Source: Clarkia xantiana subsp. parviflora
Lineage: Eukaryota; Streptophyta; Magnoliopsida; Myrtales; Onagraceae
Reading direction: 5' to 3'
DNA length: 64,000 nt
Assembly: GCA_036873135.1 (NCBI GenBank)
Contig: JAPTYO010000002.1
Coordinates: 50,710,204-50,774,203, forward strand
A program made the position numbers and the translations under genes. Shown here piece by piece: positions 4,283 through 64,000 of this stretch (within the stretch, counting starts at the first letter, position 1; each line of letters opens with the position of its first letter). Below the pieces are notes generated by a model. That model saw only the letters and a program-made list of their open reading frames with translations. It was not told the origin of the DNA and ran no database searches.

Positions 4283-4290
4283 CTATAAAA
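4283..4290 (+). promoter_or_regulatory. TATA box of the G1 antisense gene
   Basis: CTATAAAACCCT stands about 160 bp before the ATG at 4451. The same box with CTATAAAACCCT context is found before the antisense gene in G3 (40731-40724, minus) and G5 (58242-58249) at almost the same distance, so the gene appears to have its own promoter inside the element. Confidence 0.65.
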
Positions 4291-4450
4291 CCCTCAATTC
4301 TGGGCACTGTCCTTCTTTCTCTTTTACCGTTTCATTCTCTGCGATTTCAGAAGCTCTGCAACTTCGAAAGCTCAAGTTCTTCTTCGGCTTCCTGTTTTCC
4401 GATCAGTCTTCCGGCGACCTTTAAGATCATCCTTTTCGCTCCAATTCATC

Positions 4451-23792: not shown

Positions 23793-26129
23793 TTGCTCTC
23801 GTTTTTATTCACCCTGGCGAATCAGTATAGTGCCTTTTTCATTAACCCTAATTCGCCTCACTCTTGCACTCCTGAAGAGAGGATTTTAGTTGGAATCGCC
23901 ACTGCTGGTCCTTCCGATCCTTTTCGAGAAACTTCTTTCCTTCGATCTCTTTCCCAGACTACCACGGCTGCTCAATTCCAACAAGGTAGGTCGCAAGGGT
24001 TGATCCCTTCTTTTCCTGAGTGTCCTAAAGAAAATAAATTGTCCAGCGCCGCTTTCGTAAAAGTCGTGACCCTAGCCAATCTGAGCGATCATGAAGGCCC
24101 TCGTTATGTTGGTCCCCCCGGACAAGGATAACGGGCTAGGGATGGAGAGGTCCCAGTATATGCGGGCCAGATTGAGGCGGGGCTCCGATTTCCTTTCTGC
24201 ACAGAGTTGTATGAACTCTGTGAGAATTATGGGATACATGCTTGCCACAGTCAATGCTATCCGCTTCTGGGTTGGTTTTCGGTGTTTGTGCGACGTTTAT
24301 AATTGGACGTACACCCTTCAAGTCTTTAGATGCTTCTATCAATTGTTGAGAAGCAAGTTGTCGATCTTTGGTTTCAAAGGTCGATGGCCCTCAAATGACC
24401 AACTTTCTTGGAAATCGGCCAAGGAATTGGTGGTTGGGCTTAAGTCTTATAATGAAAGTTGGAAGCATTATTACTTATTTTGTCGAGAAGGCGTCATTTG
24501 GCCCTTATCCCTTCCTCTTGGTGCTGATGGTCCCCCCACTCTTCGTGGTTTAACTCCTGAGGAAATTGCCACGGTCGGCCAGATTCACGCCGTCGTGACC
24601 TTGAAAGAGTTTGAACCGTGGAAATCTGTTGAAGATACAACAAAACAGGCTCTTATTAGATCCTCAATTCGTCTTCTCACTGAAGATCCTCCTCTTGATT
24701 GGGTAACTTCTTTTTCATAGTAGCTTTTTTAAATTCACTTCTGGTTTCATGTAGGTCTCTTTGAGAAGATTTTTTATGCTCGTGGTCAGGCGGCAACAGG
24801 AGTGCCCTTGGACGATTCTGCGGCGACCAGCTCTGAGGTCGCCTCTGAACAACCCTCCCTAGCAGGAGCTATTACTGAGGCTGCCCCCGATTCTGAGAAG
24901 GGGGAGTCTGTTGAAGTTGAGGCGAGGGCCTCTCGGATGAGGACGAAAAGGCATGACAAAAGGGGTGTTGACAAGCCCATTAAAAGGGGAAGGGTGGTCG
25001 ACGTCGTTCCCATCTCAGAGTCCCTGGAGACGGTTTCCTTAACCGCTCGCACTACCTCCAACCCCCAAACCTCCAAAGGTAAGAATTTTCTTATTCTTGA
25101 TTTTATCTTCGTTTGGATTTTCGTAGAACTTTTCCAATTTCTTTTCTTTTCGTAGAAGTCGCTCTGGAGGAGAGGGGCTGTGGTGAAGCTTCCCGCTCCC
25201 AAGCCATGACTAGCTTGAAGTTTGAAGGTCCTCCCTTCACTTGGAAAATGCTCCATACTGCCCCTATGTCTTCGTCGGGTACTGCCGACTGGAATCCCCT
25301 CGCCTCTCTGAAGGGTTACTAGTTGAAAGAGGTTCACTCCATTGATAATTGAGAGTTAGCCCTCCACCTCATCAATGGCTCCATCCCTCCTCTGGATCGT
25401 CCCCGCCTTCCCATCGAGCGCGCTGGGGAGAATGCCCGTGTGTTCTTACATCGGCAGGCCAAGGTAAAGAGAACCATTTTCTTTATCACAATAATTTTTT
25501 GAGGTCGATCCTGTACTTATCTCTCTACGTTCCTTTTAGGCCACTCGATATTTTCTTCAAGTTGGTCAGCTGATAGTCGACTTGGACGAGGAAGTTTCCT
25601 CTTAAAAGGGAGACTCGCCTTGGTGGAGTCGGAAGTGGAAGAGGTGCAACGCCTCAAAGGAGAAGTCACTTGCTTAGAAGAGGAGCTTTTTCGCCTGAAG
25701 GAGGCCTCTGTTAACATGACCGAAGAACTGGCCTCCCTGAAGGACACTGTAAGGGCCTCCATGACAATTGGGGCTTTGCTTGATGATGCTCACCGTACCT
25801 CTGCCACTTTTCTAAGGGGTTTTCGTGCCAAGGTGGTTTCTCACCAAGAGGAGGTTGCCTTGTTGAGGGCGGAGGTAGAGGAGCACAAGAAGTCCGCCTC
25901 GGAGATCATTGCTAATTACAAGGCTAGCGTTGATTTTGAAACTGACGCCGCCGTAGCCATCGGGCAGATGCTTCTTTCCAGCTTTGCCACGGTGGTGGAG
26001 GATAAAAAGACCATGGACCCTGATTTTGACTTCTCGAAAGTGGTGGTTCTTCGAGAATACTTGGCGGAGGAGGCTAGGTGTAGGAAAAATGTATACATGT
26101 TTCCTTTTTCTTTTCCCTCCTCGATGTAA
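23793..26129 (+). pseudogene. Antisense spliced gene of G2 (PF04195-like)
   Basis: The gene lies on the strand opposite to gag-protease. The N-terminal region encodes the PF04195-like block: AGQIEAGLRFPF (about 24161-24200) and, after a frameshift, NAIRFWVGFRCLC and YTLQVFRCFYQLL (to about 24355). It stays open to 24720. Candidate introns are GTAACT at 24702 to CATGTAG near 24753, GTAAGA at 25079 to TTTTCGTAG at 25155, and GTAAAG at 25461 to CCTTTTAG at 25540. The middle exon is basic (RMRTKRHDKRG, IKRGR). The last exon (about 25541-26129) encodes a heptad-like coiled coil (EVEEVQRLKGEVTCLEEEL). There are several stops (25319, about 25603). The order of domains matches G1, G3 and G5, although the sequence is very different. 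Function unknown. Confidence 0.65.
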
Positions 26130-30901: not shown

Positions 30902-31598
30902 TGATGGGTTCGATTACAGCCGTCAGACCCTTTAACGGGGAGGAAACGGCAAACAGGCCCACCAGGCCCAAAATGAAGGTCAAGATGACCTAGGAGAAGG
31001 GTCCCGACGAAGGGAGTCCCGACAAGGCAAGGTCCCGACAGAGTCGGTCCCGACGGTGGAGCTGGAAGCTCCCGATGAGAAGCCTTTAAGTAGGCCCCGA
31101 TGATGAATCCCTGAGAATGATTGGCCCTGTCACGATGACGAGGGGCCCCGAGCGGTGACACAACGAGATAACTCTGGAATCCCCGACGGGAGTCGGGACT
31201 CGATTATCAGAGGATAAGGCCAAGATATGCGGGGCGTGGCCGAGATACGCGGAACGTGGTTAAGATACACGGAGCGTGGCCGAGATACGCGGGGCATGGC
31301 TGAGATACGCGAGATCACATCCGAGATACGCGGGATACGGGCTGACCACCCCCAACGGTTCACCAGGTACCTGAGGCATCTCCTTGCCTATAAAAGGGCA
31401 GGAGATCACCTCAGAACACTTACGTTGAATTCAATACACTTTGAGATTACTGCTTGCCAGTCATACGAGATACTTATTTAAGCATCGGAGAGGGATTCTG
31501 GGTCACCGCCCGGTCTATCCCCTCTTGCAGGATTACGTGGAGCGAAGGAGCTAGGATTGTCGTCAAAGTCCGTACCGGAGTTCCACCGTGATCCAACA
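30902..31598 (+). repeat. 5' LTR of G3 (697 bp)
   Basis: It starts TGATGGGTTCG and ends CCGTGATCCAACA. U3 has about six tandem units of 19-22 bp related to GGCGTGGCCGAGATACGCGG (31225-31345). The TATA box CTATAAAAG is at 31388-31396. The U3 repeats look like promoter elements. Confidence 0.95.
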
Positions 31599-31599
31599 T

Positions 31600-31617
31600 T
31601 GGCGCCGTCTGTGGGAA
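31600..31617 (+). promoter_or_regulatory. Primer binding site of G3
   Basis: TGGCGCCGTCTGTGGGAA one base after the LTR. This form of PBS is common in plant Tat-type elements. The tRNA is not assigned here. Confidence 0.9.
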
Positions 31618-31634
31618 ACAAACAAAAAGATAAT

Positions 31635-34253
31635 ATGCCTTCTACTCGATCGATGGCGGCTGGCAAGCACAGAAGACAGGGACAATCCGGTGGTTCCCGT
31701 CACCCCGCTGCAACAAATCTGGATTCAGTACCGGAACAGGAGGAAAACCAGAACCATCCCCCGGCGGAGCTCTCCCAGACAGGGGGGCACAATGGATCGC
31801 ATCCCGAAGATATTGCTCCTCAGCACCAGGGCAACAGGGGGCAGGAGGCCCCCCCAGCTGCAGACTTGACAAGGGCCGTGGCGGAAGCCATGCCTATGTT
31901 TCTGGCAGCCGTAGAGGCTCTCTTGGATCGGAGAGAGGCTGCGAGGAGGCAGGAGGAGATTCCCCCGTTGGAGGAAGTGGCCCCGCCAACAGAGGGTCGG
32001 AACGCACAGGAAGCCCCGCCCCGAGGCCAGTGCGGGAGTAGGGCAAGCGGACAGCCGGAGAGGTTCGTGGTTGATGGGCCAGGACCAGTACAGCACAGGA
32101 CTATTCCCCTGAATGGTCCCATCACTCCCAACCAGGTGGTAAAGATCGTGAACATCTGTATGGGAGAACAGAAGCCGTTGGTATCGGAGCTAAGGGACCG
32201 ATCTACTCATCCCTTCGTCCCCCGACTGATAGACACCCTCGCCCCGCCAGGGCTGGGTATCCCCGAGATTAAGGAGTATGACGGTGAGGGAGATCCAGTT
32301 CGTCATGTCCAGAAGCATCTTATGGCGTGTCTGGGAAGAGCTCCGAACGAAGACATAGTGTGTACACTGTTCCCAAACACACTTGGAGAAAGAGCCCTGA
32401 CCTGGTTCTTTAGTCTGCCCCCAGGCTGCATTACCTGCTGGGCAGACATGCACGACCGTTTTATTCGACAATACCAGGGTCGCAGACGTTTGTTGAAGAG
32501 CGTGAGGTCCCTGACCCAGGTGGTGCAGAGGCCCGACGAATCACTGGCGCACTATTACCAGCGGTACACAGCCAGTGTAGCAGAGATAGACGAGGAAATC
32601 TCAGAGGGCGAAACCATCCGTACCTTCATTCGGAACTTGACAGCCCCCTATGGCTCCGACCTGATGCACAGCGTGGCTGAGAAAGCTGTGTGGAATATGG
32701 AGGCACTACAGAAGAGGGTGAAACGGCAAATCGATGTCCAGGAGTCAAAGATAGCCGCAGGAGAACTGGAGCCCCCAAAGTCGAACAAAGGAAAGCAGTC
32801 GGTTAAACCCCTCGACGATCGTAAGTCAAAGGGCAAACCTGAGAGTAGTCGGAACCGAGGCCGACCTGATCGAAGGGACGATAGACGTTCCTCAAGGAAG
32901 GATAAGCGGGAGGATCTCGACATCCCTCTCAACTGCTCCATAGCGGAAGTGCTGAAAGTCATGGAACGACAAGGTATCTCCAGGTACCCCCCAAAGAAGG
33001 ATGGAGAATTCTTGGGATCTCGCACGGATCGCTACTGCCGATTTCATCGCGCGAATGGTCACGACACCAATCACTGTCGAGAACTGAAGAAGGAGATTGA
33101 AAAGCTGATCCAGAAGGGAAAGCTCAAAGAATGTGTCGGGGATAAGCGGTGTCGATCCCGCTCTCGGTCCCGATCGCGGTCCCATTCCCGATCCCGCGAT
33201 CGGTCCCCAAAGAAGAAGAGAACCGATCCAGAGTCATCCGGTGCTCGCAAGGAGAGACGGGGCACTATCAACGTGATTCATGGAGGGTTTGCTGCTGGAG
33301 GTGATACCTCATCCGCCCGAGAGGTCTATGCCTCTAGAATCCCTACGGCGGTGGTGCTGGGTAAGAGGTTCCGATCCTGGACCTTGAAAGAAGAGATGGT
33401 AATCTCCTTCTCGTCGGAAGACCTCATAGGCGTGGAGACTCCGCACGACGATGCCTTGGTGGTAACCTTGGATGTAGACGGGTTCGAAATGAAGAGAATT
33501 CTAATCGACGGGGGGAGCTCCTCCGACATCCTATTCATGGACGCGCTGGAAGCTATGGGGAAGACGAAGAAAGATCTAAAGGAGGCAAACTTCCCGATGG
33601 TCGGGTTCTCTGGCTCAACCTCCTATCCGCTAGGAGTAATCGCTTTACCCGTGGAGTTTGGTAGCGGGTGGAAATCAGAAAGGAGGAACGTGGAATTCGT
33701 GGTTGTCGATTCCGCGGGGACCTACAACGCGATCATCGGAAGAACCACCATTAATCCCCTGATGGCGGTTGCCTCGACAGTGCATCAGAAGATGAAGTTC
33801 CCGACCGACCATGGAGTCGGAGAGGTTAAGGGCGACCAGGTGGCTTCTCGAAAATGCTATGTTAACGCCACCCGAAGGAGGAGACGAGAGGCCATGACTG
33901 TCCGTCAGACAGACACGGATCCTAGAGAAGAGTTTGGGCGTCCCGCCCCCGTAGAAGATCTGAAAGAAGTCGAGATCGACGGACCCCAGAGGAAGGTGAA
34001 AATCGGGTCTGCTCTGACTGAGGAGACAGCCCAAAAATTGGTGGAATTGTTGAAGGAGTTCAAGGAGCTGTTTTCCTGGTCCCTGAGCGATATGCCAGGA
34101 ATCAGCCCCGATGTAATCGTACACGAGCTGAAGATAGACCCCGCGGTCAAGCCTATCACGCAGAAAAGACGTCCGATGGGCACGGACAAGAAGATCGCGA
34201 TCCAGCAGGAAGTGGGCAGGTTGCTCGATGCTGGGTTCATTAAGGAGCTCTGA
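31635..34253 (+). CDS. gag-pro: Gag-protease of G3 with start of RT
   Basis: I chose the ATG at 31635 (MPSTRSMAAGKHRRQ), the first one after the PBS. The frame is open for about 872 codons. Domains in order: a Pro/Gln/Glu-rich N-terminus; the retrotransposon Gag domain (about residues 205-345, GEGDPVRHVQKHLM to EGETIRTFIRNL); a basic linker; a CCHC-type knuckle (YCRFHRANGHDTNHC, residues 467-481); an Arg-Ser tract with KKKR (about 505-530); protease with LIDGGSSSDILF (about 620-632) and YNAIIGRTTINP; and the RT N-terminus (DVIVHELKIDP). It ends in TGA at 34251-34253 inside RT, where G0 reads Arg. Gag and protease are complete and could be functional. Confidence 0.92.
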   Translation: MPSTRSMAAGKHRRQGQSGGSRHPAATNLDSVPEQEENQNHPPAELSQTGGHNGSHPEDIAPQHQGNRGQEAPPAADLTRAVAEAMPMFLAAVEALLDRREAARRQEEIPPLEEVAPPTEGRNAQEAPPRGQCGSRASGQPERFVVDGPGPVQHRTIPLNGPITPNQVVKIVNICMGEQKPLVSELRDRSTHPFVPRLIDTLAPPGLGIPEIKEYDGEGDPVRHVQKHLMACLGRAPNEDIVCTLFPNTLGERALTWFFSLPPGCITCWADMHDRFIRQYQGRRRLLKSVRSLTQVVQRPDESLAHYYQRYTASVAEIDEEISEGETIRTFIRNLTAPYGSDLMHSVAEKAVWNMEALQKRVKRQIDVQESKIAAGELEPPKSNKGKQSVKPLDDRKSKGKPESSRNRGRPDRRDDRRSSRKDKREDLDIPLNCSIAEVLKVMERQGISRYPPKKDGEFLGSRTDRYCRFHRANGHDTNHCRELKKEIEKLIQKGKLKECVGDKRCRSRSRSRSRSHSRSRDRSPKKKRTDPESSGARKERRGTINVIHGGFAAGGDTSSAREVYASRIPTAVVLGKRFRSWTLKEEMVISFSSEDLIGVETPHDDALVVTLDVDGFEMKRILIDGGSSSDILFMDALEAMGKTKKDLKEANFPMVGFSGSTSYPLGVIALPVEFGSGWKSERRNVEFVVVDSAGTYNAIIGRTTINPLMAVASTVHQKMKFPTDHGVGEVKGDQVASRKCYVNATRRRRREAMTVRQTDTDPREEFGRPAPVEDLKEVEIDGPQRKVKIGSALTEETAQKLVELLKEFKELFSWSLSDMPGISPDVIVHELKIDPAVKPITQKRRPMGTDKKIAIQQEVGRLLDAGFIKEL

Positions 34254-37244
34254 TTCTAGACTTGGGTTGCTAATCCAGTGCTGGTGAAGAAAACTAACGG
34301 GAAATGGCGAATGTGTGTGGACTTCCGCGACTTGAACAAGGCTTGCCCGAAGGACTGTTATCCACTCCCGAGAATCGACCAGTTGGTGGATGCCACGTCG
34401 GGACATGAGCTGTTGAGTTTCATGGATGCATATTCAGGCTACAACCAGATCAAGATGGCCAAGGAAGACGCTCACCAAACAGCGTTCTATGCGGACAGTG
34501 ACATCTATCACTACGATGTCATGCCTTTTGGGTTGATCAATGCTGGGGCCACCTACCAACGGATGGTGAACAAACTGTTTGGGGATATGCTGGGAGAAAC
34601 CATGGAAGCTTACGTGGATGATATGCTGGTGAAGTCCAGACAAGCCGAGGATCATGTGCACAACCTAACCATGGCATTCGAGCGAATGAGGCTCCATCAA
34701 GTTCGCTTGAACCCAACGAAATGCGCCTTTGGAGTCCACTCAGGGAAGTTTTTGGGCTTTATGGTGAGCTAGAGAGGAATTGAGGTGAATCCTGAGAAGC
34801 TGAGGGCAATCGAGGAGATGCAGTCTCCAATAAACCATCGGGAGGTACAAGTGCTGAATGGCCGACTAGCTGCAATGAATCGCTTCTTGTCCAAAGCCAG
34901 CGACCGATCAATGCCGTTTTTTGAAGTCCTGAGGGCCAACAAGAAATTTGAATGGACCGCCAAGTGTGAAGAGGCATTCCAAGCACTCAAGCAGCACCTT
35001 CGCACCCTCCCGCCGTTGGCAAAACCGGTTCCAGGCGAGCCACTCTACCTTTATTTGGCTGTTTCTGAATTTGCCATTAGCTCTGTGTTAGTAAAGATTG
35101 TCGAGGGTAATCAAGTCCCCGTTTATTATGTAAGCAAGGCGTTTGCCAAGTCTGAATTAAACTATCCCGCCGTTGAGAAGTACCTCTTTGCGTTGATTAT
35201 TACTGCTCGGAAGCTAAGGCCTTATTTCCACGCACACGAGATTACTGTGCTGACAAACCAGCCTTTGAAGCATTTTTTGACCCGACCGGACGCGTCGGGA
35301 AGATTAGTGAAGTGGGCAGTAGAGCTTAGTGAGTTTCGAATACACTTTGCTCCAAGAACGGCAATTAAGGGCCAAGCGTTGGCGGATTTTATAGCAGAAT
35401 CCACAGCCCCCGATCTGGAAGATGCGGGCCCTGTAGAGGGGGCAACCGTGGAGGTCCCGATAGAAGAACAACCAGAGAGGGCAGAGCAATCAGAACAGCC
35501 AAACAAGGAAAATACCTGGGAGATGTACACGGATGGCTCCGCGAGTTCGGACGGATCAGGAGCAGGCTTTTTGTTAAAACCACCGGGTGATGGTGAACCG
35601 CTCCGATACGCCTTGGCTTTGACATTCAAGGCCACAAACAACGAAGCGGAGTATGAAGCTCTTATCACGGGCCTAAAAATTGCTAAAGGCACCGGAATCG
35701 ATCACTTGAGAGTGAAGTGCGACGCAGCGTTAATTGTGAACCAGGTTCAAGGGCGATACGAAGCGAGGAGTCCAATAATGAAGAAGTATCTGCGAGAGGT
35801 ACAAGCCCTGAAAGAGAGCTTCAAAAGCTTCGATATCGAGGCAATTCCGAGGGAGGAAAATGTAGAGGCAGATGCCTTGAGAAAATTTGCCCTGGGGGCA
35901 CCCTTGGAAGAAAATCGGAAGGTGCACTTCTTGGAGAAGGTGATCCTATCAAACATCGACCCAACACAGGTGTGCACCATTGAAGCAAGATCGGAGGAGG
36001 AGCCTACTTGGATGACCCCGATAGTCGCGTAGCTGACTACGGGGGCAGTCCCCGATGATCAAGTGACAGCGGACAGGATACGTCGGATCGCGGCCAATTA
36101 TGTGATGCTGGACAATCAGCTATACAAGAAGGGTTGGTTCTCGACTCCGTACTTGAAGTGTGTAGCAGAACCCGACACCAGTCGAATCCTGAAGGAAATG
36201 CATGAAGGGGTCGCGGCTTGTCACGAAGGGGCCCGATCCATTACGAGGAAGGTGTTGAACTTAGGCTACTATTGGCCCACGATGAACAAAGAAGCAACGG
36301 CGTTGGTCCGATCCTGCGACGCGTGCCAGAGGTACGCCCCGAGTATCGTGGCTCCGGCCGCTAATCTGACATCCATCAAGAGCGCGTGGCCCTTCGCGCA
36401 GTGGGGCATCGACTTGGTGGGACCTCTTCCACAAGCACAAGGACAATGTAAGTATTTACTTGTAGCTATCGATTATTTTTTGAAATGGATAGAGGCAAAG
36501 GCGTTGGCCGGAACAACAGGGAACCAGATCGTCAAGTTCCTCCAGACCCATATTGTGTCCAGATATGGGATTCCTAAGGTGGTGATCAGTGACAACGGTC
36601 CACCGTTTAACGGCTCTCAGGTGAGGGAATATCTGGAGGAGTTGAACATCGAGCATCAGACTGCTTCTGTGCGTCATGCTCAGACTAACGGCCAGGTAGA
36701 ATCGGCCAACAAAATTGTGATGGATGGCCTAAAGAAGAGGGTCTATGCCTTGAAGGGCAAGTGGCTGAACGAACTGGAAAACGTGCTTTGGGCTGTTAGA
36801 ACGACACCCAAACGATCAACAGGGGAGACTCCGTTTGGCCTCGTTTATGGCACGGAAGCTGTCGCCCCCATAGAGGTAGCTGTGGCGTCCCATCGGATGA
36901 GATATTACGAGCCCCTGACGAACGATGAAGTGAGACGTCTGGACTTGGACTTACTCGAAGAGAAGAGGCGGGAAGCCGATGAAGTCCAAGCTCGAATGCG
37001 TTTGGCGACGGCCAGGTACTACAATCGGCGAGTGAAATACCGACAGTTCTTCGTCGGGGAGCTGGTTTGGCGTCGCAACGAGTTCACCCTTTTGGATCGA
37101 ATCAACAAGATGTCACCAAAATGGGAAGGACCTTATAAGGTCGTGGGGATGCCAGCTCCAAATGCGTACAAGTTGGAAGACCTCGATGGCAGAACGTTGA
37201 AGCATTCTTTTAGTGGCGAACACTTGAAGAAACACCATGCTTGA
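34254..37244 (+). pseudogene. pol: Pol of G3: RT, two RNases H, integrase
   Basis: The domains are colinear and in one frame but carry in-frame stops at 34251-34253 and 34257-34259 (TGA and TAG), 34770-34772 (TAG) and 36030-36032 (TAG). RT has VDFRDLNKACPKDCYP and the catalytic YVDDMLVKS (34611 onward). The conventional RNase H has lost acidic residues (LAVSEFAISS where DAS is usual; TNQPLKHFL where TDHKPL is usual). The archaeal-type RNase H keeps MYTDGSASSDG, EAEYEALITGL, KCDAALIVNQV and VEADAL. Integrase has the complete HHCC finger (HEGVAACHEG, CDACQRY), the core Asp, Asp, Glu (GIDLVGP, SDNGPPF, NGQVESANK) and a C-terminal domain ending LKKHHA. No chromodomain. Confidence 0.92.
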
Positions 37245-37690
37245 AGAAAGTCGCCTTAAGTGGTGCCCGATGTAAAAAATCGCCTTAAGTGGTGTATGCT
37301 GTTTATCGTTCAATTTGATGTAAGCCAATTTTATGCCATCAATAAAGAGGTTGCTTCCAAAAAGAGTTGTCCTTAGATTTATGCTAAGTATCAAAGTCGC
37401 CTTAAGTGGTGCACGAGAAAAGTCGCCTTCAGTGGTGCACGAGAAAAGTCGCCTTAAGTGGTGCACGAAAAGTCGCCTTGAGTGGTGCACGATACTAAGT
37501 CGCCTTGAGTGGTGCACAATCCTTAGATTTATTCTAAGTATCAAAAAGTCGCCTTGAGTGGTGCACGATACTAAGTCGCCTTGAGTGGCGCACGATCTTT
37601 AGGTTTATCCTAAGTAATAATTAAGTCGTCTTAAGTGATGCACGGAACTAAGTCGCCTTAAGGGGGACAAGTTATTAAATCGTCGAGAAA
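37245..37690. repeat. Tandem array of about 20-bp units, G3
   Basis: About 13 units of AAGTCGCCTTAAGTGGTGCACGA with variants, plus the hairpin CTTAGATTTATTCTAAG. It is the same array as in G1 and G5 (opposite orientation there), lying between the ends of integrase (37244) and the antisense gene (37862). Confidence 0.9.
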
Positions 37691-37861
37691 GACGTGCGAG
37701 AATGTCTTAAGTGTCGAGGTTTCGACCTAAACACGTATAGTAAAGTCACTCGGAGAAGTGCAACGAAAGAATCGGAACTAAAGAAGTCTGATATTGATAA
37801 GGGCTCAAGGGCCCGACGACGACAAAAGAGAAGAAGATACAAGGACTATAAAAGTAAACAT

Positions 37862-40554
37862 TCAAGCTTGGTCCTTGTCGGCAGCGTTGGCAGCAGCTGG
37901 GTCCGCGGAGTCGGTAACAGAAGGATCCACAGGGTTGGCTTCGGGAGGATTGGCTATTGGGGCGTCCGCACTTGGAAGTTCAGAAGCGTCTTCGACAATT
38001 ACGGGGGTACTCCCCCCATCACTCTCCTCGGAAAGAGCAAAATACTTCTTCGCAAAGGGAGCGAGGGAAGGAGACTTGTCGAAGTTAATAGCGTCCCCAT
38101 ACTCCAGGTGGAGCTCCTCAACCGCGTTGAAAAGAGTGTTCTCCACCTCCACGCCAAAGAACTTCATGGCATCGGCTTGGAAGTCCTCGGACCTCCGATA
38201 GTCCTCCCGACCCTTTACCTCCGCCTCGGCCAGCTGCGCAGGAAATCCCGCGATTTGCTCCTCCAGAGCCTTCTTCTCAAGGACCAGCTTGTCCTCGGCA
38301 GCCTTCTTCTCAAGGACTAGCTTGTCCTCGGCAGCCTTCTTCTCCTGGGTCAGCCTGTCCACAGCTGCCTCCCGCTACTGCCGCTCTTGCCTCAAGAGCC
38401 CCTCGAAGTCCCCGATCTGCTGCTGGAGGTCCCGAACCTTCTGATTGAGGACAGCCTGTTCCTTGACAAGCTTTCCCCGCGAAGATTGGGAGGCCTTGAG
38501 ATCCTCCTGAAGCTGCTCGCGGATCCCTCGGTCCCGCTCCCGGGACTCATCGTAGGCAATGACATACCCGATGAGGCGGTTGAAGTCCCCGAGCTCCTGC
38601 AATAAGAAGGAAAAGTGTTAATGGACAAACGACCCGATTTATCATCAAAAAGAAAGAAGCGAAGTCCTACCTCTACACGGCGCATGGCCATATCCCTGAC
38701 CTCCCGATGCATATGCGTCCGATTGAGGCAAATCGGATACCGCATAGTAGGCAGGATCGCGCCTGACAGCAGATGCAGGGCCAGCTCCCGATCCTGCTCC
38801 CCTCGTGTAAGCGGGACTCCTTGAAGCGTCTGGATAAGAGTCCAGGGGGCATTCTCTTGTGAAGGATCAAAGGGCCTGTAGAAGTTCCCATCGAGAGCAA
38901 GAGGAGAAAGAGGACGATGAGTGGAAGGGCATGCCTCCGTCTCGGCCCGAACAGGGGAAGGAGTGAAGTCATGGATGGGCGAGGGCTTTCGCTGCTGCGG
39001 AGAAGATGAAGGAGGCGGCCCCTGAGGGGTTGGTTTTAAGGGGGATTGCCCCGTCTTCGACGCTGACGAAGGGAGCCACCCGTCAGTCTCCTCGGAGGAG
39101 TCCAAAGTTTCCACCTGACGAAACTGTTCGCCAGTTGGAGCCTTCTCTCCAGCTGAGGAAGGCACCCCCGCTGAAGACGGTGCGTCCGCAGAAGCTGCAG
39201 CACCCGATGGAGCTCCCGAGCGACCTGCACCTGGAGGATGAGAAGCTTCAGAAAGGTAGTCAGGAAGTTCATCGGGATTCTTACACCAAATGATACGTCG
39301 GGAGACGTATTGATCCTGCCCACGATAATGATAGTACCCCCCTTCAAGACTCGAGGAGTTTCGCCTCGAAGGATTCGTTTGACGTCAGCAAGTCGATTTA
39401 ATAGCAAGTCGGAGTTTTTTACCTTCTTCAGCATTCTGGACATCAAAGAGCTGGTCCAGATCCACCCGCTTCCGCTTGGGTTGCTCCGCTGAAGGAGACC
39501 CCGACCGAGCAGCAGCCTTCTTGGCGGACTTCCTCTTCCGCGAGGGGCGGACAGCATCAGTCTCCCCCTGCTTAAGGAATAGATCGGTCAGCACAGATAC
39601 CTTCTTGGCTGCAAATAGTAAACAAAGAAGAGTTAGAAGTTTACCCAAGGGACCATATTAGAAGGGCCGTCGAAGAGCTGCCCCCCAGAGACAATATCAA
39701 GGAGTCGGATCCCGGCGTGCACCAGGTCCCGCTCCACAAGAGAGTTGGCGTTGAGAGGAGTGTAAGACTCCCCCCACCGATAAAGCTGGATCAGTTGGAG
39801 AGTTTCAAAATCCTCGTCGGCGTAAGTATGGAAAGCAGGCGGAGGGTCCGCCGCCACCTCCCACCGAGGCCAGGGAATCGAAGAGTGTCGGATAAAGAAG
39901 TAGCTTTTCTTCCAGCTACTGTTATCGGACCCTGTATCAACCAAGAGTCCCCGACCCTTGACCACCTTCCAGGTGTCATGGGTCCAACCACATCGGGCAA
40001 GCTGCTGCTTACTCCACTTAGGCATCCGAGGGTAGAAGGCGCAAACCCCCGCCTCATTGCACTTCATCCCATAAAAGGTTCTAAAGAGCTGGAGGCTGTA
40101 GACCCACTTCTGTCGGAAGCAGAGGACTTGAAAGGCGTTCCAGAGACGGATGGCATGGGGAGAAAAGGTGGTGGGATGTGTTTTGTAATGCTGGCACATC
40201 TCGACCAGATTACCGCAAAAGGGGAATCTGATCCCCGCTGATACTTGTCCCGTAGAGACAAATACCTCCCCTTTCTGGGGACGAGTAACCTCAGGGTCAC
40301 TCGAGGGGCGAGGCCAAGGATATGGGAATCGGGGTTCCCAGGTAATAGTGATACAACCCTCTCGGAGGGCTGCATCATAAGCAGTATTGGAGATCTCATT
40401 CAGAGCATAGTCAAAGTTAAAAGGTTTTCTCCCCTCAGAGCTGGAACCACTGTCTGAAAAGCAACCATGGCAAGAAAAATACAGTGGGACTCTTGGAAAG
40501 CTATGAAAAAGGAAAAGACGAACAAGCAACAAAGAGGAATCCCTTACCAGACAT
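37862..40554 (-). pseudogene. Antisense spliced gene of G3 (PF04195-like)
   Basis: The inferred minus-strand exons are 40554-40548 (ATGTCTG), 40453-39645, 39603-38671 and 38596-37862. The first intron is 94 bp (GTAAGG...TTTTCAG), not a multiple of three, yet exon 1 joins exon 2 in frame (MSDSGSSSEGRKPF). Exon 2 holds the PF04195-like block (FPFCGNLVEMCQHYKTHPTT, SIRLWNAFQVLC-like, FYPRMPKWSKQQLA). Exon 3 holds the basic segment PSRKRKSAKK and PKRKRVDLDQLF, then a Pro/Ser-rich part. Exon 4 begins ELGDFNRLIGYVIAYDE and is a coiled coil with an acidic tail ending DKDQA. Damage: a deletion of about 50 bp near 39390 shifts the frame, and a TAG interrupts exon 4 near 38373. The N-terminal exon is complete. 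Confidence 0.78.
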
Positions 40555-40723
40555 GATGAAGTAGAGGTTAAAGGAGCTGAATGAAACGTCGCTGGAAAGA
40601 TGATTGGAGAAACTCCAAAGACCTTCGAAATCGCAGAGGAGTCGCAGAAAAATCGCAGAGGAATCGCAGAGAGCTCTTGAGAATTCGAAAACGGTAAAAG
40701 TTAAAATTATGACCATGGCTAGG

Positions 40724-40731
40724 GTTTTATA
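40724..40731 (-). promoter_or_regulatory. TATA box of the G3 antisense gene
   Basis: CTATAAAACCCTAG on the minus strand, about 170 bp before the ATG at 40554. Context and distance match G1 and G5. Confidence 0.68.
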
Positions 40732-40847
40732 GTCGAAGAAGACGGTTGAAAGGACACTTTGATCCGAGTCGTCGAAGTCGAAAAGTCTTAATCTGGACCG
40801 TTGAGATGAAACGTGTAGAAGGACAATGGACGTAATGATGAAACGGC

Positions 40848-40865
40848 CTGAAAAGCACTTTTCAG
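40848..40865. promoter_or_regulatory. Perfect dyad upstream of the G3 antisense gene
   Basis: CTGAAAAGCACTTTTCAG is an 8+8 bp inverted repeat with a 2-bp spacer, about 117 bp upstream of the TATA box. Variants lie at the same place in G1 and G5. Confidence 0.5.
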
Positions 40866-41100
40866 AAAAGGACAGGCGCGAAAAATCAGGCACGTGGGCT
40901 GAAAACGTCACTCCATTATCTACTGCGTTTAATGCACTGGGGAACCGAGGAGACCCCTAGGATTTAACCGTTATCTGCAAAACATTGAGGAAACGTGAAG
41001 GAGAAGGCTGATAATTGAGTAACTAAACCAAGGGAAAGATCCCCGATTCCAGCATCGGAAGATCGGGAGTTGGAAGACACGACGAACTAAAAGTCCCTCA

Positions 41101-41115
41101 TGTCTTGGGGGCAAA
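41101..41115 (+). promoter_or_regulatory. Polypurine tract of G3
   Basis: TGTCTTGGGGGCAAA directly before the 3' LTR start TGATGGG. Confidence 0.88.
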
Positions 41116-41812
41116 TGATGGGTTCGATTACAGCCGTCAGACCCTTTAACGGGGAGGAAACGGCAAACAGGCCCACCAGGCCCAAAATGAAGGTCAAGAT
41201 GACCTAGGAGAAGGGTCCCGACGAAGGGAGTCCCGACAAGGCAAGGTCCCGACAGAGTCGGTCCCGACGGTGGAGCTGGAAGCTCCCGATGAGAAGCCTT
41301 TAAGTAGGCCCCGATGATGAATCCCTGAGAATGATTGGCCCTGTCACGATGACGAGGGGCCCCGAGCGGTGACACAACGAGATAACTCTGGAATCCCCGA
41401 CGGGAGTCGGGACTCGATTATCAGAGGATAAGGCCAAGATATGCGGGGCGTGGCCGAGATACGCGGAACGTGGTTAAGATACACGGAGCGTGGCCGAGAT
41501 ACGCGGGGCATGGCTGAGATACACGAGATCACATCCGAGATACGCGGGATACGGGCTAACCACCCCCAACGGTTCACCAGGTACCTGAGGCATCTCCTTG
41601 CCTATAAAAGGGCAGGAGATCACCTCAGAACACTTACGTTGAATTCAATACACTTTGAGATTACTGCTTGCCAGTCATACGAGATACTTTTTTAAGCATC
41701 GGAGAGGGATTCTGGGTCACCGCCCGGTCTATCCCCTCTTGCAGGATTACGTGGAGCGAAGGAGCTAGGATTGTCGTCAAAGTCCGTACTGGAGTTCCAC
41801 CGTGATCCAACA
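41116..41812 (+). repeat. 3' LTR of G3 (697 bp)
   Basis: Same length and ends as the 5' LTR. The four differences I count are all substitutions (near 41522, 41558, 41690 and 41790). TATA box CTATAAAAG at about 41602-41610. Confidence 0.95.
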
Positions 41813-56057: not shown

Positions 56058-57160
56058 CTAAGATAACATCTTCATGAAGTCAACATCAAGCGCAATATCG
56101 TCATTACCATATTCAAAGATCATGGAGAGATAAGCCGCTTCAGCTTCTTTACGCTGTAAATCCGCAACATGGTTAACAACAAAAGAATAATAAGGACCTA
56201 ACTTGTCGAACGGAAAGCCGGAGGCAAGCGCGCGTACTCTGCCAATATAATCATTGGCAAACTCATCAACCATAGATGAAGACTTCGCCTTGGCGGCAGC
56301 AAGGACGGCGGAAGTATGCGCAACAGTGCTGGGATACTCGGCAAGTCCCTTCTCAACCCCTGACTTGTGTGCTTCCTCACGTATATAAGGAAGCGCGACA
56401 TTATGGGCGCTACTACTCTCTGCAATTTGCTGCTTGATAGCAGCAATCTCAGCCTCAAGTTGCTCAACATGGGAACGACGAGCAGCAATGTGTGTATCAA
56501 AATCAGCAACTTGGGAGTTCAAGTTTTTCACCTCCTCCTCGGACTGTGCGAGCTCACGAATAATTGCATTGCTCTTCTGGACAGCAGCCCTCTTCTCGCG
56601 CACAAGCTCAAACACAAAGGATGACATGTTCATCATCCTTGAAATAGCCTAAGTACAATAAACCAAACAACAAGACAATCAACGCAAGGCATATGATTAC
56701 AGCATGCGAACACAGAAGTTATAGCAAGGCTTACGGGGCAAATTCAGCCAAGCTACGCTCAACATATGCTTGTGCTTCTTCGTCTATGGATGGCTTAACG
56801 TCATGATTGCCAGGAGGAACGCACCTTTGAAGCACTCGCACCCCGACTGCCAGTGTGCTGAGCTTGGAATCCTTCGGAAAGTAAAGACTGTCAGTGGAGA
56901 AAGGTGACCGATCTTCTCCAGATACATCCATCCCGTCGGATAGGGTCAAGTCATCACGCTTGATGCCTGGAAGTGCTGCAATAAGGTCAACATAAAACAA
57001 AGAAGATATTAGTAAAAAAATACTAAGTAAAAGAAACATATCGAAGTAAACAACACGTACCTCGACGAGAGGAACGCTCCTCCTCGGGCCGGTCCCTCGA
57101 CCGGGGGGCAGAAGGCGCCACTGTGCGACTCTCGACTCTCTTCCCTTTATCACAAGAAGG
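56058..57160 (-). pseudogene. Antisense spliced gene of G4, 5' part cut by G5
   Basis: On the minus strand: exon 57160-57061 (PRSRDRPEEERSSRR, basic), intron 57060-56976 (GTACGT...TTGCAG), exon 56975-56735 (LPGIKRDDLTLSDGMD, then VKPSIDEEAQAYVERSLAEF), intron 56734-56649 (GTAAGC...ACTTAG), exon 56648-56058. The first join is in phase; the second is not, so a small indel or another splice site is likely. The last exon is a coiled coil (LAQSEEEVKNLNSQVADFDT, VEQLEAEIAAIKQQIAE) of about 190 residues. The position, orientation, introns and coiled-coil end match the antisense genes of the other elements. The PF04195-like part would lie beyond G5. Confidence 0.65.
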
Positions 57161-57857
57161 AGTTGGATCACGGTGGAACTCCGGTACGGACTTTGACGGC
57201 AATCCTAGCTCCTTTGCTCCACGCAATCCTGCAAGAGGGGATAGACGGGCGGTGACCCAGAATCCCTCTCCGATGCTTAAATGAGTATCTCGTATGACTG
57301 GCAAGTAATAAACTCAGAGTGTATTCAACTCAACGTAAGTCTTTCTGAGGTGATCTCCTGCCCTTTTATAGGCAAAGAGATGCCTCAGGTACCTGGCGAA
57401 CCGTTAGGGGTGGTTAGCCCGTATCCCGCATATCTCGGACGTGATCTCGCGTATCTTAGCCATGCCCCGCGTATCTCGGCCACGCTCCGTGTATCTTAAC
57501 CACGTTCCGCGTATCTCGGCCACGCCCCGCATATCTTGGCTTTATCCTCTGATAACGAGTCCCGACTCCCGTCGGGGACTCCAGAGTTATCTCGTTGTGT
57601 CACCGCTCGGGGCCCCTCGTCATCGTGACAGGGCCAATCATTCTCAGGGATTCATCATCGGGGCCTACTTAAAGGCTTCTTATCGGGAGCTTTCAGCTCC
57701 ACTGTCGGAACCGACTCTGTCGGGACCTTGCCTCGTCGGGACTCCCTTCGTCGGGACCCTTCTCTTAGGTCATCTTGACCTTCATTTTGGGGCCTGGTGG
57801 GCCTGTTTGCCGTTTCCTCGCCGTTAAAGGGCCTGACGGCTATAGTCGGACCCATCA
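57161..57857 (-). repeat. 3' LTR of G5 (697 bp)
   Basis: Reverse complement of the G3 LTR, same length. It begins AGTTGGATCACGG where TGTTGGATC is expected, so the terminal base has changed, and ends CGGACCCATCA. U3 repeats of the GGCCACGCCCCGCATATCTTGG type lie at 57430-57540. The TATA box is at about 57361-57369 (minus). Confidence 0.93.
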
Positions 57858-58126: not shown

Positions 58127-58241
58127 GACGTTTCATCATTACGCCCGTTGTCCTTCTGCACGTTTCATCTCAACGGTCCAGATTAAGACTCTTCGACTTC
58201 GACGACTCGGATCGAAGTGTCCTTTCAACCGTCTTCTTCGA

Positions 58242-58249
58242 CTATAAAA
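58242..58249 (+). promoter_or_regulatory. TATA box of the G5 antisense gene
   Basis: CTATAAAACCCTAG, about 165 bp before the ATG at 58412. Identical core and spacing to G3. Confidence 0.68.
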
Positions 58250-58411
58250 CCCTAGCCACAGTCACAATTTAATTTTTACCGTCTTCGAATTCTCAAAAGC
58301 TCTCTGCGATTCCTCTGCAATTCCAAGCTCTGCGATTTTGAAGGTCTTTGGAGTCTTCCCGATCATCTTTCCGGCGACGTTTCGTTCATCTCCTTCAACC
58401 TCCACTTCATC

Positions 58412-61120
58412 ATGTCTGGTAAGGAATCCCTCTTCGTTGCTTGTTCGTCTTTTCTTTCTAATTTTTCCAAGAGTCCCACTGTATTTTCTTGCCCTGGTTG
58501 CTTTTCAGACAGCGGTTCCAGCTCTGAGGGGAGAAAACCCTTTAATTTTGATTATGCTCCAAATGAGATTTCCAATACTGCCTATGATGCAGCTCTCCGA
58601 GAGGGTTGCATCACCATCACCTGGGAACCTCGTTTCCCATATCCTAGGCATCGTCCCTCGAGTGACTCTGAGGTTACTCGTCCCCATAAAGGGGAGGTGT
58701 TTGTCTCTACGGGACAAATATCACCGGGGATCAGGTTCCCCTTTTGCGGTAATCTGGTCGAGCTGTGCCATCATTACAGAACACATCCCACCACCTTTTC
58801 TCCCCATTCCATCCGCCTCTGGAACGCCTTTCAAGTCCTCTGTCTCCGACAGAAGTGGGTCTACAGCCTCCAACTCTTCAGAACCTTTTATGGGATGAAG
58901 TGCAATGAGGCGGGGATTTGCGCCTTCTACCCCCGGATGCCCAAGTGGAGTAAGCAGCAGCTTGCCCGGTACGGTTGGACCAGTGACACCTGGAAGGTGG
59001 TCAAGGGTCGGGGACTCTTGATCGATACAGGGTCCAACAACAGTAGCTGGAAGAAGAGCTACTTCTTTATCCGTCACTCCTCAATTCCCTGGCCTCGCTG
59101 GGAGGTGGCAGCAGACCCTCCGCCTGCTTTCCACACTTATGCTGACGAGGATTTCGAGACTCTCCAACTTATCCAGCTCTATCGGTGGGAGGAGTCTTAC
59201 ACTCCTCTCAACGCCAACTCACTCGTGGAGCGGAACCTGGTGCACGCCGGGATCCGACTCCTCGATATTGTTTCTGGGGGGCAACTCTTCGACGGCCCTT
59301 CCAATATGGTTCCTTGGGTAAACTTCTAATTCTTCTTTGTTTACTGTTTGCAGCCAAGAAGGTATCTGTGCTGACCGATATGTTCCTTAAGCAGGGGGAG
59401 ACTGATGCTGTCCGCCCCTCGCGGAAGAGGAAGTCTGCCAAGAAGGCTGCTGCTAGGTCAGGGTCTCCTTCAGCGGAGCAGCCCAAGCGGAAGCGGGTGG
59501 ATCTGGACCAGCTCTTCGATGTCCAGAACGCTGAAGAAGGTAAACAACTTCGACTTGCTATTAAATCGAACAAGAGGATGGTCCCGTCGGATTTGATTTC
59601 CTCGACCAAGGAAGGCCGCAATACTGATGTCAAAAGAATCCTTCGAGGCGAAACTCCCCGAGTCTTGACAGCAGGATATTATCATTATCGTGGGAAGGAT
59701 CAATACGTCTCCCAACGTATCATCTGGTGTAAGAATCCCGATGAACTTCCTGACTACCTTTCTGAAGCTTCTCATCCTCCAGGTGCAGGTCGCTCGGGAG
59801 CTTCCTCGGGTGCTGCAGCTTCCGCAGACGCACCGCCTTCAGCGGGGGTGCCTTCCACAGCTGGAGAGAAGGCACCAACTGGCGAACAGTTTCGTCAGGT
59901 GGAAACTCTGAACTCCTCCGAGGAGACTGGCGGGGTTGACCCCCCTCAACAGCGTCGGAAGGCGGGGCAATCCCCCTTGAAACTAACCCCTCAGGGGCCG
60001 CCTCCTTCGTCTTCTCCGCAGCAGCGGCAGCTCTCACCTATCCACGACTTCTCTCCTTCCCCTGTTCGGGCCGAGACGGAGGCGTGCCCTCTCATTCCTC
60101 GTCCTATCTCTCCCCTTGCTCTTGATGGGGACTTCTACAGGCCCTTCAATTCTTCACAGGCGAATGCCCCCTGGACTCCTATTCAGACGCTTCAGGGAGT
60201 CCCGCTCACACAAGGGGAACAGGATCAGGAGCTGGCCCTGCATCTGCTGGCGGGTTCTATTCTGCCTTCTATGCGGCATCCGATTTACCTCAATCGGACG
60301 CATATGCAGCGGGACATTAGGGATATGGCTGTGCGCCGCGTAGAGGTGAGACTTTGCTTCTTTCTTGTTGATGATAGATCGGGTCGTTTGTTCATTAACA
60401 CTTTTCCTTCTTATTGCAGGAGCTCAGGGACTACAATCGCCTCATCGGGTATGTTATTGCCTATGATGAGGCCCGGGAGCGGGACCGAGGGGTCCGCGAG
60501 CAGCTTCAGGCGGATCTCAAGGCCTCCAGTCTTCACGGGGGAAGCTTGCCAAAGAGCTGGCTGTCCTCAATCAGAAGATTCGGGACGTTCAGCAGCAGAT
60601 AGCGGACTTCGAGGGGCTCTTGAGGCAAGAGCGGCAGGAGCGGGGAGCAGTTGTGGATCGGCTGACCCAGGAGAAGAAGGCTGCCGAGGACCAACTGGTC
60701 CTTGAGAAGAAGGCTTTGGAGGAGCTAATCGCGGGGTTTCCTGCGCAGCTGGCCGAAGCGGAGGAAAATGGTCGGGAGGACTATCGGAGGTCGGAGGGCT
60801 TCCAAGCTGATGCCATGAAGTTCTTTGGCGCGGAGGTGGAGAACACTCTCTTCAATGCGGTTGAGGAGCTCCACCTGGAGTACGGGGATGTTATCAACTT
60901 CGACAAGTCTCCTTCTCTCGCTCCTTTTGCGAAGAAGTATTTTGCTCTTTCCGAGGAGAGTGATGGGGGGAGTACCCCCGTAATTGTCGAAGACGCTTCT
61001 GAACTTCCAAGTGCGGACGCCCCGATAGTCAATCCTTCCGAAGCCAATCTTGTGGATCCCTCTGCTACCGACTCCGCGGACCCAGCTGCTGCCGATGCTG
61101 CCGACAAGGACCAAGCTTGA
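58412..61120 (+). pseudogene. Antisense spliced gene of G5 (PF04195-like), nearly intact
   Basis: The inferred exons are 58412-58418 (ATGTCTG), 58509-59317, about 59358-60345 and 60420-61120. The introns are GTAAGG...TTTTCAG (90 bp), GTAAAC...GCAGCCAAG (the second AG keeps the frame) and GTGAGA...TTGCAG (74 bp). Exon 2: MSDSGSSSEGRKPF, FPFCGNLVELCHHYRTHPTT, FYPRMPKWSKQQLA, IPWPRWEVAADPPPAF. Exon 3: PSRKRKSAKKAAARSG and PKRKRVDLDQLF (NLS-like), a Pro/Ser-rich middle, and HPIYLNRTHMQRDIRDMAVR. Exon 4: a coiled coil (LTQEKKAAEDQLVLEKKALE), a conserved block (VENTLFNAVEELHLEYGD) and an acidic Ala/Asp/Pro tail ending DKDQA. The only damage I see is a one-base deletion near 60530. Function unknown; a nuclear DNA- or RNA-associated role is a guess. 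Confidence 0.8.
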
Positions 61121-61212: not shown

Positions 61213-62108
61213 ATCTTTTGTTGCACTTCTCCGAGTGACTTTACTTATACGCGCTTAAGTCGAAACTTCGAAGACACTTAAGACATTCTCGTATGTCTTT
61301 CCCGACGATTTAATAACTTGCACCACTTAAGGCGACTTAACTCCGTGCATCACTTAAGACGACTTAATTCTGCGCACCACTTAAGGCGACTTAGTTCCAT
61401 GCATCACTTAAGATGACTTTATATTACTTAGGGTAAATCTAAGAATCGTGCATCACTTAAGACGACTTAATTCTGTGCACCACTTAAGGCGACTTAGTTC
61501 CATGCATCACTTAAGACGACTTTCGGATACTTAGAATAAATCTAAGTATTGTGCACCACTCAAGGCGACTTTCCTCGTGCATCACTTAAGACGACTTTCG
61601 GATACTTAGAATAAATCTAAGTATTGTGCACCACTCAAGGCGACTTAGTCCCGCGCATCACTTAAGACGACTTTTGGATACTTAGAATAAATCTAAGCAT
61701 CGTGCATCACTTAAGACGACTTAATTCTGTGCACCACTTAAGGCGACTTAGTTCCATGCATCACTTAAGACGACTTTCGGATACTTAGAATAAATCTAAG
61801 CATTGTGCATCACTTAAGACGACTTAATTCTGTGCACCACTTAAGGCGACTTAGTTCCATGCATCACTTAAGACGACTTTCGGATACTTAGAATAAATCT
61901 AAGGACAACTCTTATTTGGAAGCAACCTCTTTATTCATTGACGGCACAAAATTGGCTTACATCGAATTAAACGATAAACAGCATACACCACTTAAGGCGA
62001 TTTTACATCGAGCACCACTTAAGGCGACTTCATCGGGCACCACTTAAGGCGACTTTATCGGGCACCACTTAAGGCGACTTTCTCGGGCACCACTTAAGGC
62101 GACTTTCT
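61213..62108. repeat. Tandem array of about 20-bp units, G5, with higher-order repeats
   Basis: About 35 units of two alternating types, (C/G)CACCACTTAAGGCGACTT and CATCACTTAAGACGACTT, with the hairpin CTTAGAATAAATCTAAG recurring at least five times. Three near-identical blocks of about 120-130 bp (61440-61900) show higher-order duplication. About twice the length of the arrays in G1 and G3. Confidence 0.9.
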
Positions 62109-64000
62109 TCAAGCATGGTGTTTCTTCAAGTGTTCGCCACTAAAAGAATGCTTTAACGTTCTGCCATCGAGGTCTTCCAACTTGTATGCATTCGGCGCTG
62201 GCATCCTCACGACCTTATAAGGTCCTTCCCATTTTGGTGACATCTTGTTGATTCGATCCAAAAGGGTGAACTCGTTGCGACGCCAAACCAGCTCCCCGAC
62301 GAAGAACTGTCGGGACTTCACTCGCCTATTGTAGTACCTGGCCGTCGCCAAACGCATTCGAGCTTGGACTTCGTCGGCTTCCCGCCTCTTCTCTTCGAGT
62401 AAGTCCAAGTCCAGACGTCTCATTTCATCGTTCGTCAGGGGCTCGTAATATCTCATCCGATGGGACGCCACAGCTACCTCCACGGGGGCGACAGCTTCCG
62501 TGCCATAAACGAGGCCAAACGGAGTCTCCCCCGTTGATCGTTTGGGTGTCGTTCTAACAGCCCAAAGCACGTTTTCCAGTTCGTTCAGCCACTTGCCCTT
62601 CAAGGCATAGACCCTCTTCTTTAGGCCATCCATCACGATTTTGTTGGCTGATTCTACCTGGCCATTAGTCTGAGCATGGCGTACGGAAGCAGTCCGATGC
62701 TCGATGTTCAACTCCTCCAGATACTCCCTCACCTGAGAGCCGTTTAACGGTTGGCCATTGTCGCTGATCACCACCTTAGGAATCCCGTATCTGGACACGA
62801 TATGGGTTTGGAGGAACTTGACGATCTGGTTCCCCGTTGTTCTGGCCAATGCCTTCGCCTCTATCCATTTCGAAAAATAATCGATAGCTACAAGTAAATA
62901 CTTACATTGTCCTTGTGCTTGTGGAAGAGGTCCCACCAAGTCGATGCCCCACTGCGCGAAGGGCCAAGCGCTCTTGATGGATGTCAGGTTGGCGGCCGGA
63001 GCCACGATACTCGGGGCGTACCTCTGGCACGCGTCGCGTGATCGGACCAACGCCGTTGCTTCTTTGTTCATTGTGGGCCAATAGTAGCCCAAGTTCAACA
63101 CCTTCCTCATAATGGATCGGGCCCCTTCGTGACAAGCCGCGACCCCCTCATGCATTTCCTTCAGGATTCGATTGGTGTCGGGTTCTGCTACACACTTCAA
63201 GTACGGAGTCGAGAACCAGCCCTTCTTGTACAGCTGATTGTCCAGCATCACATAATTAGACGCGATCCGACATATCCTGTCTGCTGCTACCTTATCCTCG
63301 GGGACTGCCCCCGTAGTCAGATACACAACTATCGGGGTCATCAAGGTGGGCTCTTCCTCCGATTTTGTCTCAATGGTGCACACCTGCGTTGGGTCGATGT
63401 TTGACAAGATCACCTTCTCCAGGAAGTGCACCTTCCGATTTTCTTCTAAGGGTGCCCCCAGGGCGAATTTGCTCAAGGTGTCTGCCTCTACGTTTTCCTC
63501 CCTCGGAATAGCCTCGATATCGAAGCTTTTGAAGCTCTCTTTCAGGGTTTGTACCTCTCGCAGATACTTTTTCATTATCGGACTCCTTGCTTCGTATCGC
63601 CCTTGAACCTGGTTCACGATTAACGCAGCGTCGCACTTCACTCTCAAGTGATCGATTCCAGTGCCTTTAGCGATTTTTAGGCCCGTGATAAGAGCTTCGT
63701 ACTCCGCTTCGTTGTTTGTGGCCTTGAATGTTAAAGCCAAAGCATATCGGAGCGGTTCACCTTCACCCGGTGGTATCACAAGAAGCCCGCTCCTGATCCG
63801 TCTGAACTCGCGGAGCCATCCGTGTACATCTCCCAGGTATTTTCCATGTTTGGCTGTTCTGATTGCTCTGCCCTCTTTGGTTGTTCTTCTGTCGGGACCT
63901 TTATGGTTGCCCCCTCTACAGGGCCCGCTTCTTCCAGATCGGGGGCTGTAGACTCTGCTAATGCTTGGCCCTTAATGGCTGTCCTCGGAGCGAAGTGTAT
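62109..64000 (-). pseudogene. pol: Archaeal-type RNase H and integrase of G5
   Basis: Open on the minus strand for 556 codons (63779-62109). Upstream, 64000-63780 encodes QSEQPNMENTWEMYTDGSAS and joins through a one-base frameshift near 63780. A three-codon gap removes part of the segment before STAPDLEEAGP. RNase H keeps TDGS, EAEYEAL, KCDAALIVNQV and VEADTL. The integrase zinc finger has HEGVAACHEG, but its first Cys is Arg (SRDACQRY). The core has GIDLVGPL, ISDNGQPL and NGQVESANK. The C-terminal domain ends LKKHHA. The long frame makes this the best preserved integrase in the window, but the finger is defective. Confidence 0.9.

Follow-up and report, generated by a model that had tools for sequence, protein, structure and literature searches.

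Antisense genes and their predicted exons in the window

The 64-kb window (the whole stretch of DNA that was analysed) contains five loci, G1 to G5, at which a gene antisense to gag-pol and just inside the 3ʹ LTR had been described. This arrangement was found in G1, G3, and G5, in which LTR matches, together with pol or gag domains on the opposite strand, placed the antisense gene between pol and the 3ʹ LTR, and also in G2 (an LTR pair and gag), while the position inside the 3ʹ LTR was left unconfirmed for G4. The G3 element (30902..41812, + strand) lies between LTRs at 30902-31598 and 41116-41812 that are 99.4% identical, and Pfam detected gag (PF03732) and RNase H domains on its + strand. 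The G5 element is on the − strand; its 3ʹ LTR (57164..57857) matched the G3 LTR at 95% and its partner, L067:3739-4430, at 98.7%, and its pol, with RNase H and integrase (Pfam RVT_3, rve, and Integrase_H2C2), occupies 62109..63971 on the − strand, opposite to the antisense gene. In G1, positions 3254-3914 matched an LTR, and integrase was found on the − strand at 7787-8800. From the preliminary description, the antisense domain and what is known of the lineage, we take G1, G3, and G5 to be putative Tat/Retand elements; the host element of the antisense gene is probably a Retand-like LTR element.

The gene model was extended to four predicted exons and three GT-AG introns with phases 1, 0, and 0, amounting to about 820 codons. 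In G5 (+ strand), it consists of exon 1 (58412..58418, 7 bp), intron 1 (58419..58508, 90 bp, GTAAGG..TTTTCAG), exon 2 with a region related to Transposase_28 (PF04195) (58509..59317), intron 2 (59318..59394, 77 bp), exon 3 with a basic stretch and a linker (59395..60345), intron 3 (60346..60419, 74 bp), and exon 4 with a coiled coil and an acidic tail (60420..61120, stop codon at 61118-61120). The G1 copy (4451..7277, + strand) has its exons at 4451-4457, 4568-5376, 5459-6445, and 6522-7277, and the G3 copy (37862..40554, − strand) at 40554-40548, 40453-39645, 39567-38671, and 38596-37862; the gene ends given previously, 7277 (G1), 37862 (G3), and 61120 (G5), were all read in the sequence. Exon 2 runs for 269 codons after the split codon and then into GTAA. 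In G1 and G5, the open frame of exon 3 exceeds 300 codons and extends up to a GT; intron 3 (76 bp in G1, 74 bp in G3, and 74 bp in G5) is then followed by exon 4 up to the stop. All three copies are damaged, by stops and a frameshift in exon 2 of G1, in exons 3 and 4 of G3, and by a frameshift in exon 4 of G5, which counts against a spliced gene.

A TATA box, CTATAAAACCCT, common to G1, G3, and G5 had been reported, and exact copies were located at 4283..4294 (+) in G1, 40721..40732 (−, from 40732) in G3, and 58242..58253 (+) in G5, the last being 385 bp inside the LTR. These three were the only exact matches in the window, where 0.39 would be expected at up to one mismatch. The distance to the ATG, previously given as 160-172 bp, had to be corrected: from the first base of the motif it is 168 (G1), 178 (G3), and 170 bp (G5), and from its last base 157, 167, and 159 bp, respectively. 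On the antisense strand of all three, the order is CTATAAAACCCT, TTCATCATGTCTG directly followed by GTAAG, intron 1 ending in TTTTCAG, and exon 2. The conserved TATA box suggests a putative promoter belonging to the antisense gene itself.

The 7-bp first exon was read as ATGTCTG|GTAAG at 4451, 40554, and 58412, and the lengths of the first introns agreed with those described (110 bp in G1, 94 bp in G3, and 90 bp in G5). Removal of intron 1 was said to restore a shared start, and it does give MSDSGSSSEG in G1, G3, and G5. Intron 1 of G5, however, has no in-frame stop (the unspliced frame spans 302 codons), and therefore its removal there restores the shared start, not openness.

The end of intron 2 was harder to place. 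With the first AG after the donor, the intron would be 36 bp (G3 and G5) or 41 bp (G1) and exon 3 would be out of frame; this form was set aside, as it gave no frame longer than 329 codons in any of the 29 copies collected from the host genome. The second CAG, which makes the intron 77 bp in G3 and G5 and 82 bp in G1, keeps the frame, and so does an AG five bases after the first one (in G5, a 41-bp form ending at 59358). Introns in plants seldom measure less than 60-70 bp. In four of the four Transposase_28 loci of other families examined, which were chosen among the fetched loci for their long open frames and had their acceptors placed by eye, a counterpart of 76-90 bp was present at the same place, ending at the second CAG (L009:3111-3186, 76 bp; L010:2623-2706, 84 bp; L012:2727-2810, 84 bp; L016:2976-3065, 90 bp), with a phase 0 donor and no stop in the next 30 codons. 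The first-AG form led to a stop within 30 codons in two of the four (L010 and L016) and left 30 codons open in the other two (L009 and L012), so that this cross-family check was half clear. Against the 77-bp form, the stretch between the acceptors (59354-59394) showed fixed differences at 5 of its 39 sites, a lower proportion than in exon 2, and would fit an exon. On balance, the second CAG is favoured as the probable end of intron 2. The introns after exon 2 in these four loci have two acceptor-like AGs about 30 bp apart, the first being directly followed by GTTNGTTT in three of the four.

The G2 antisense gene (23793..26129, + strand) belongs to another family and lies antisense to a gag domain inside an LTR pair of 94.5% identity. 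Neither the mini-exon nor the CTATAAAACCCT TATA box was seen when looked for at this locus, and its ORF at 24085-24717 had no Transposase_28 match in Pfam, although it could be aligned to exon 2 of G5 at 32% identity. G4 (56058..57160, − strand) retains the 3ʹ part of its gene, with the upstream part beyond the G5 insertion. Its antisense position just inside a 3ʹ LTR is unconfirmed because 57160 is a cut end, the adjoining LTR is that of G5, and no gag or pol domain was found in the two neighbouring ORFs; the LTR pair of G4 itself is probably 51765-52409 and L067:7831-8470. The G4 pieces submitted to Pfam gave no Transposase_28 match.

Two further arrangements were observed around these elements. 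On either side of G5 is a direct repeat of 230 bp (56932-57161 and L067:4431-4660, 100% identical), in place of the 4-6 bp target duplication expected for an LTR element; the G5 element splits the G4 gene. Inverted pol segments (2739-3258 and 8833-9351, 97.7% identical) stand on either side of the G1 antisense gene and LTR, perhaps reflecting the nesting of an element within a member of its own subfamily.

Copies in the host genome and selection on the spliced frame

The host genome (695.6 Mb in 59 contigs) was searched for further copies. Subfamily A (G5-like, n = 22) was collected with the query 58230-58620, for which 40 of 3167 candidates were scored, and comprises the next 20 of the 39 matches after the window's own, together with G3 and G5. 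Subfamily B (G1-like, n = 7) was collected with the query 4270-4900, for which 40 of 4456 candidates were scored, and comprises G1 and, from the 39 other matches, the six ranked 1-5 and 7. As the A copies were picked by likeness over the start region, divergence there is understated. Four A copies (L047, L049, L064, and L065) and one B copy (L071) matched the gene partially and are absent from some pairwise counts; no fetched copy was dropped.

Exon 1 was the same and MSDSGS followed removal of intron 1 in 29 of 29 copies, and the TATA box was exact in 21 of the 22 A copies and 5 of the 7 B copies. The GT or AG at the six splice sites was kept in 26 to 29 of the 29 copies, depending on the site. 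When all three introns were removed, one open frame of 819-822 codons was obtained in 7 of the 29 copies, with intron 2 taken as either 77 or 41 bp. By comparison, no copy had a full-length frame if intron 1 was kept, if intron 2 was kept or if intron 2 was taken as 36 bp, and a single copy had one if intron 3 alone was kept. All of the full-length frames were in A (7/22) and none in B (0/7), which counts against the model.

When the whole genome was searched for exon 1 joined directly to exon 2, 994 matches were obtained at up to three mismatches, none of them with 0 or 1; ATGTCTGACAG was absent among the 100 matches listed of the 994, and the listed ones were intron 1 ends or variants of these. 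The lack of an intron-free copy neither proves nor disproves splicing, and it agrees with stable transmission of the introns. The 994 matches suggest about 1000 genome copies of the exon 1 boundary.

We then estimated dN/dS by the Nei-Gojobori method. Between G1 and the A copies, the values were 0.10 for exon 2 (22 comparisons), 0.33 for exon 3 (22 comparisons), and 0.21 for exon 4 (20 comparisons), although dS was 0.86-1.11, near saturation, which weakens these estimates. Within A, they were 0.11, 0.31, and 0.20, respectively. In shifted frames, dN/dS rose to 0.89-2.41 (G1 versus A) and 0.92-2.71 (within A). A dN/dS near 1 had been named beforehand as the value that would speak against the gene; the spliced frame gave 0.10-0.33 compared with 0.89-2.4 in the shifted frames, indicating that a protein is encoded and was selected. 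As a yardstick, G1, G3, and G5 were compared with one another over the RNase H/integrase region; all three comparisons gave a dN/dS of 0.13-0.14, obtained with a slightly simpler counting method and with less silent divergence (dS 0.15-0.51). Selection on the antisense gene is thus similar in strength to that on this region.

Fixed differences between A and B, defined as bases present in at least 75% of the copies in each subfamily, led to the same picture. By codon position, they numbered 30/13/91 in exon 2, 70/44/107 in exon 3, and 31/34/60 in exon 4, and the ratio of replacement to silent fixed changes per site was 0.14, 0.45, and 0.38, respectively, compared with 0.89-3.33 in shifted frames. 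Fixed divergence was 0/7 in exon 1, 0.18 in exon 2, 0.25 in exon 4, 0.29 in exon 3, 0.34 in intron 1, and 0.42 in intron 3. The nucleotide divergence of exon 3 (0.29) and exon 4 (0.25) is barely under that of the first part of intron 2 (0.29), a point against the model. Within A, sites at which at least four copies carried the rarer base showed 3 replacement and 21 silent changes in exon 2, compared with 61 and 60 among singletons (neutral ratio 3.44); in exon 3, the corresponding numbers were 15 and 21, compared with 101 and 53 (neutral ratio 2.90). Older changes were filtered more than younger ones in both exons.

Predicted product and its relatives

In Pfam, exon 2 of G5 matched Transposase_28 with an E-value of 4.4e-4 and 20.9 bits, below the gathering score of 26.2. 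It could be aligned to all 16 of the other-family Transposase_28 loci fetched (14 distinct places) at 28-36% identity, and all 16 were over the cut-off. Exons 3 and 4 had no match in any of these 16 loci, which counts against the model. Transposase_28 is abundant in the host genome, with at least 150 matches, all over the cut-off (150 scored of 11371 candidates). A protein-collection search with exons 1-3 of G5 returned no relative at E 0.01, nor did one with a Transposase_28 protein of another family, so the support comes from one genome.

Exon 3 contains a basic stretch, RKRKSAKK...PKRKR, resembling a nuclear localisation signal. The structure model of G1 exon 4 has a 100-residue helix (residues 28-127), in which residues 51-110 have a mean pLDDT of more than 90, and a tail modelled with low confidence; the model of exon 2 had a mean pLDDT of 44. 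No bZIP match was found up to E 0.05 in exons 2 and 3 of G5 or exon 4 of G1. The basic stretch and the modelled helix agree with an oligomeric protein of the nucleus, and the predicted product is likely a nuclear coiled-coil accessory factor. A nuclear regulatory role for it is plausible, if somewhat short of probable.

Interpretation and relation to known systems

The claim that the locus is an antisense protein gene, spliced and with a promoter of its own, gained support from codon-level selection and from the splice sites and TATA box, which were conserved against a divergence of introns 1 and 3 at 34% and 42% of aligned sites, respectively. We regard the locus as a genuine coding unit, very probably with splicing, and because of the frame and codon results we consider it highly likely that the antisense locus of G1, G3, and G5 is a spliced protein-coding gene of the element.

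Three other explanations were weighed. The antisense RNA might itself be functional, without coding for protein, and restrain the element by way of double-stranded RNA and small RNAs, with the open frames incidental. A non-coding role has been discussed for antisense transcripts of plant elements (PMC7264820), and the frames are damaged in all three window copies; yet an RNA-only role would not give a dN/dS of 0.10, the codons are under selection comparable to that on the RNase H/integrase region, and a frame of more than 800 codons is open in 7 of the 29 copies, which makes this explanation improbable. Slightly more improbable still is that a host gene or another transposon was captured with its promoter and introns and has been carried as a passenger. 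The promoter and introns do resemble those of a nuclear gene, and Transposase_28 is annotated as transposon-related, but the domain is widespread both in the host genome and in Retand elements of flowering plants (PMC11963269), and selection went on across the subfamilies after any capture. Least probable of all are separate unspliced ORFs, with exons 2, 3, and 4 read from their own starts or by frameshifting and the introns acting as spacers: exon-sized frames are open without splicing and 59354-59394 is conserved like an exon, but GT and AG are retained at the six sites in nearly all copies while the bodies of introns 1 and 3 have diverged by 34-42%, the shared ATG sits in exon 1, and G1 and G3 do not have in common the sole ATG close to the beginning of exon 3.

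If the locus is a spliced gene, RNA polymerase II would start below the internal TATA box, the antisense pre-mRNA would be spliced in the nucleus, and the protein would return there as an accessory factor, most likely to regulate either how the element is transcribed or what becomes of its DNA. The sense genomic RNA would carry the introns as reverse complements, unspliced, and reverse transcription would copy them unchanged; the introns would persist because, in antisense orientation, they are not spliced from the sense genomic RNA. A retroelement could thus carry spliceosomal introns through replication when they are on the antisense strand. We speculated that the introns might serve as a gate, by which sense RNA gives no protein, the introns survive reverse transcription, and protein can arise solely in the nucleus, when an integrated copy is transcribed; such a feedback regulator of the integrated state, a plant counterpart of HBZ in logic and kept for the age of the lineage, seems unlikely.

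Antisense ORFs of this kind have precedents. TRP28 ORFs were reported in 97% of recently active Retand clusters (Vicient 2025, PMC11963269), an earlier survey having found the Transposase_28 domain in 23% of Retand elements (PMC6317226), and in some Retand clusters an additional antisense ORF encodes an Smc domain, which was counted 11 times in 104 antisense ORFs (PMC11963269). Like the TRP28 ORFs, the gene described here is antisense, between pol and the 3ʹ LTR and related to Transposase_28. In that survey, ORFs were called by ORF Finder, and in its text "intron" and "TATA" do not occur and "splic" and "exon" occur only in reference titles (PMC11963269), whereas here the pieces are read as one spliced gene. 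The antisense accessory gene gene23 of maize Grande has a promoter upstream and a nuclear product (review PMC7264820); its promoter is a reported one, whereas that of the present gene is predicted from a TATA box 168-178 bp upstream of the ATG. The novelty of the preliminary description is smaller than implied, antisense Transposase_28 ORFs having been reported for Retand (PMC11963269) and a promoter of its own for gene23 (PMC7264820).

HBZ/APH of HTLV is likewise a spliced antisense transcript of a retroelement, coding for a mostly nuclear regulatory protein (PMC10186651). The HBZ promoter, however, lies in the 3ʹ LTR (PMC10186651), whereas the TATA box at 58242 is internal, the LTR ending at 57857; unlike HBZ (PMC10186651), the present product had no bZIP match, and common ancestry is not claimed. 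In Ogre, of a related plant lineage, a spliceable intron lies between the gag-protease and pol ORFs (PMC6317226), whereas the introns here are antisense.

What appears to be new is the exon-intron structure, antisense Transposase_28 ORFs being known, as is an own promoter in Grande gene23. No exon-intron model for the antisense gene was found in a literature search judged largely from titles and the starts of abstracts, and an earlier description is possible. ORF surveys that do not consider introns would split the gene and miss its start, and may have reported its protein as several distinct ORFs. The four-exon model gives exact joins and a full protein, which makes the gene testable, and since it is under selection comparable to that on integrase, the gene is of importance to the element.

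Repeats were also observed beside the antisense genes. In G2, a unit of about 93 bp is repeated in tandem (26358-27610) between the antisense gene and gag; about half of the Retand clusters have tandem arrays in the corresponding region (PMC11963269). In G5, repeats of about 100-150 bp (CACTTAAG..CGACTTA) occupy 61304-62107, between the end of the antisense gene and pol.
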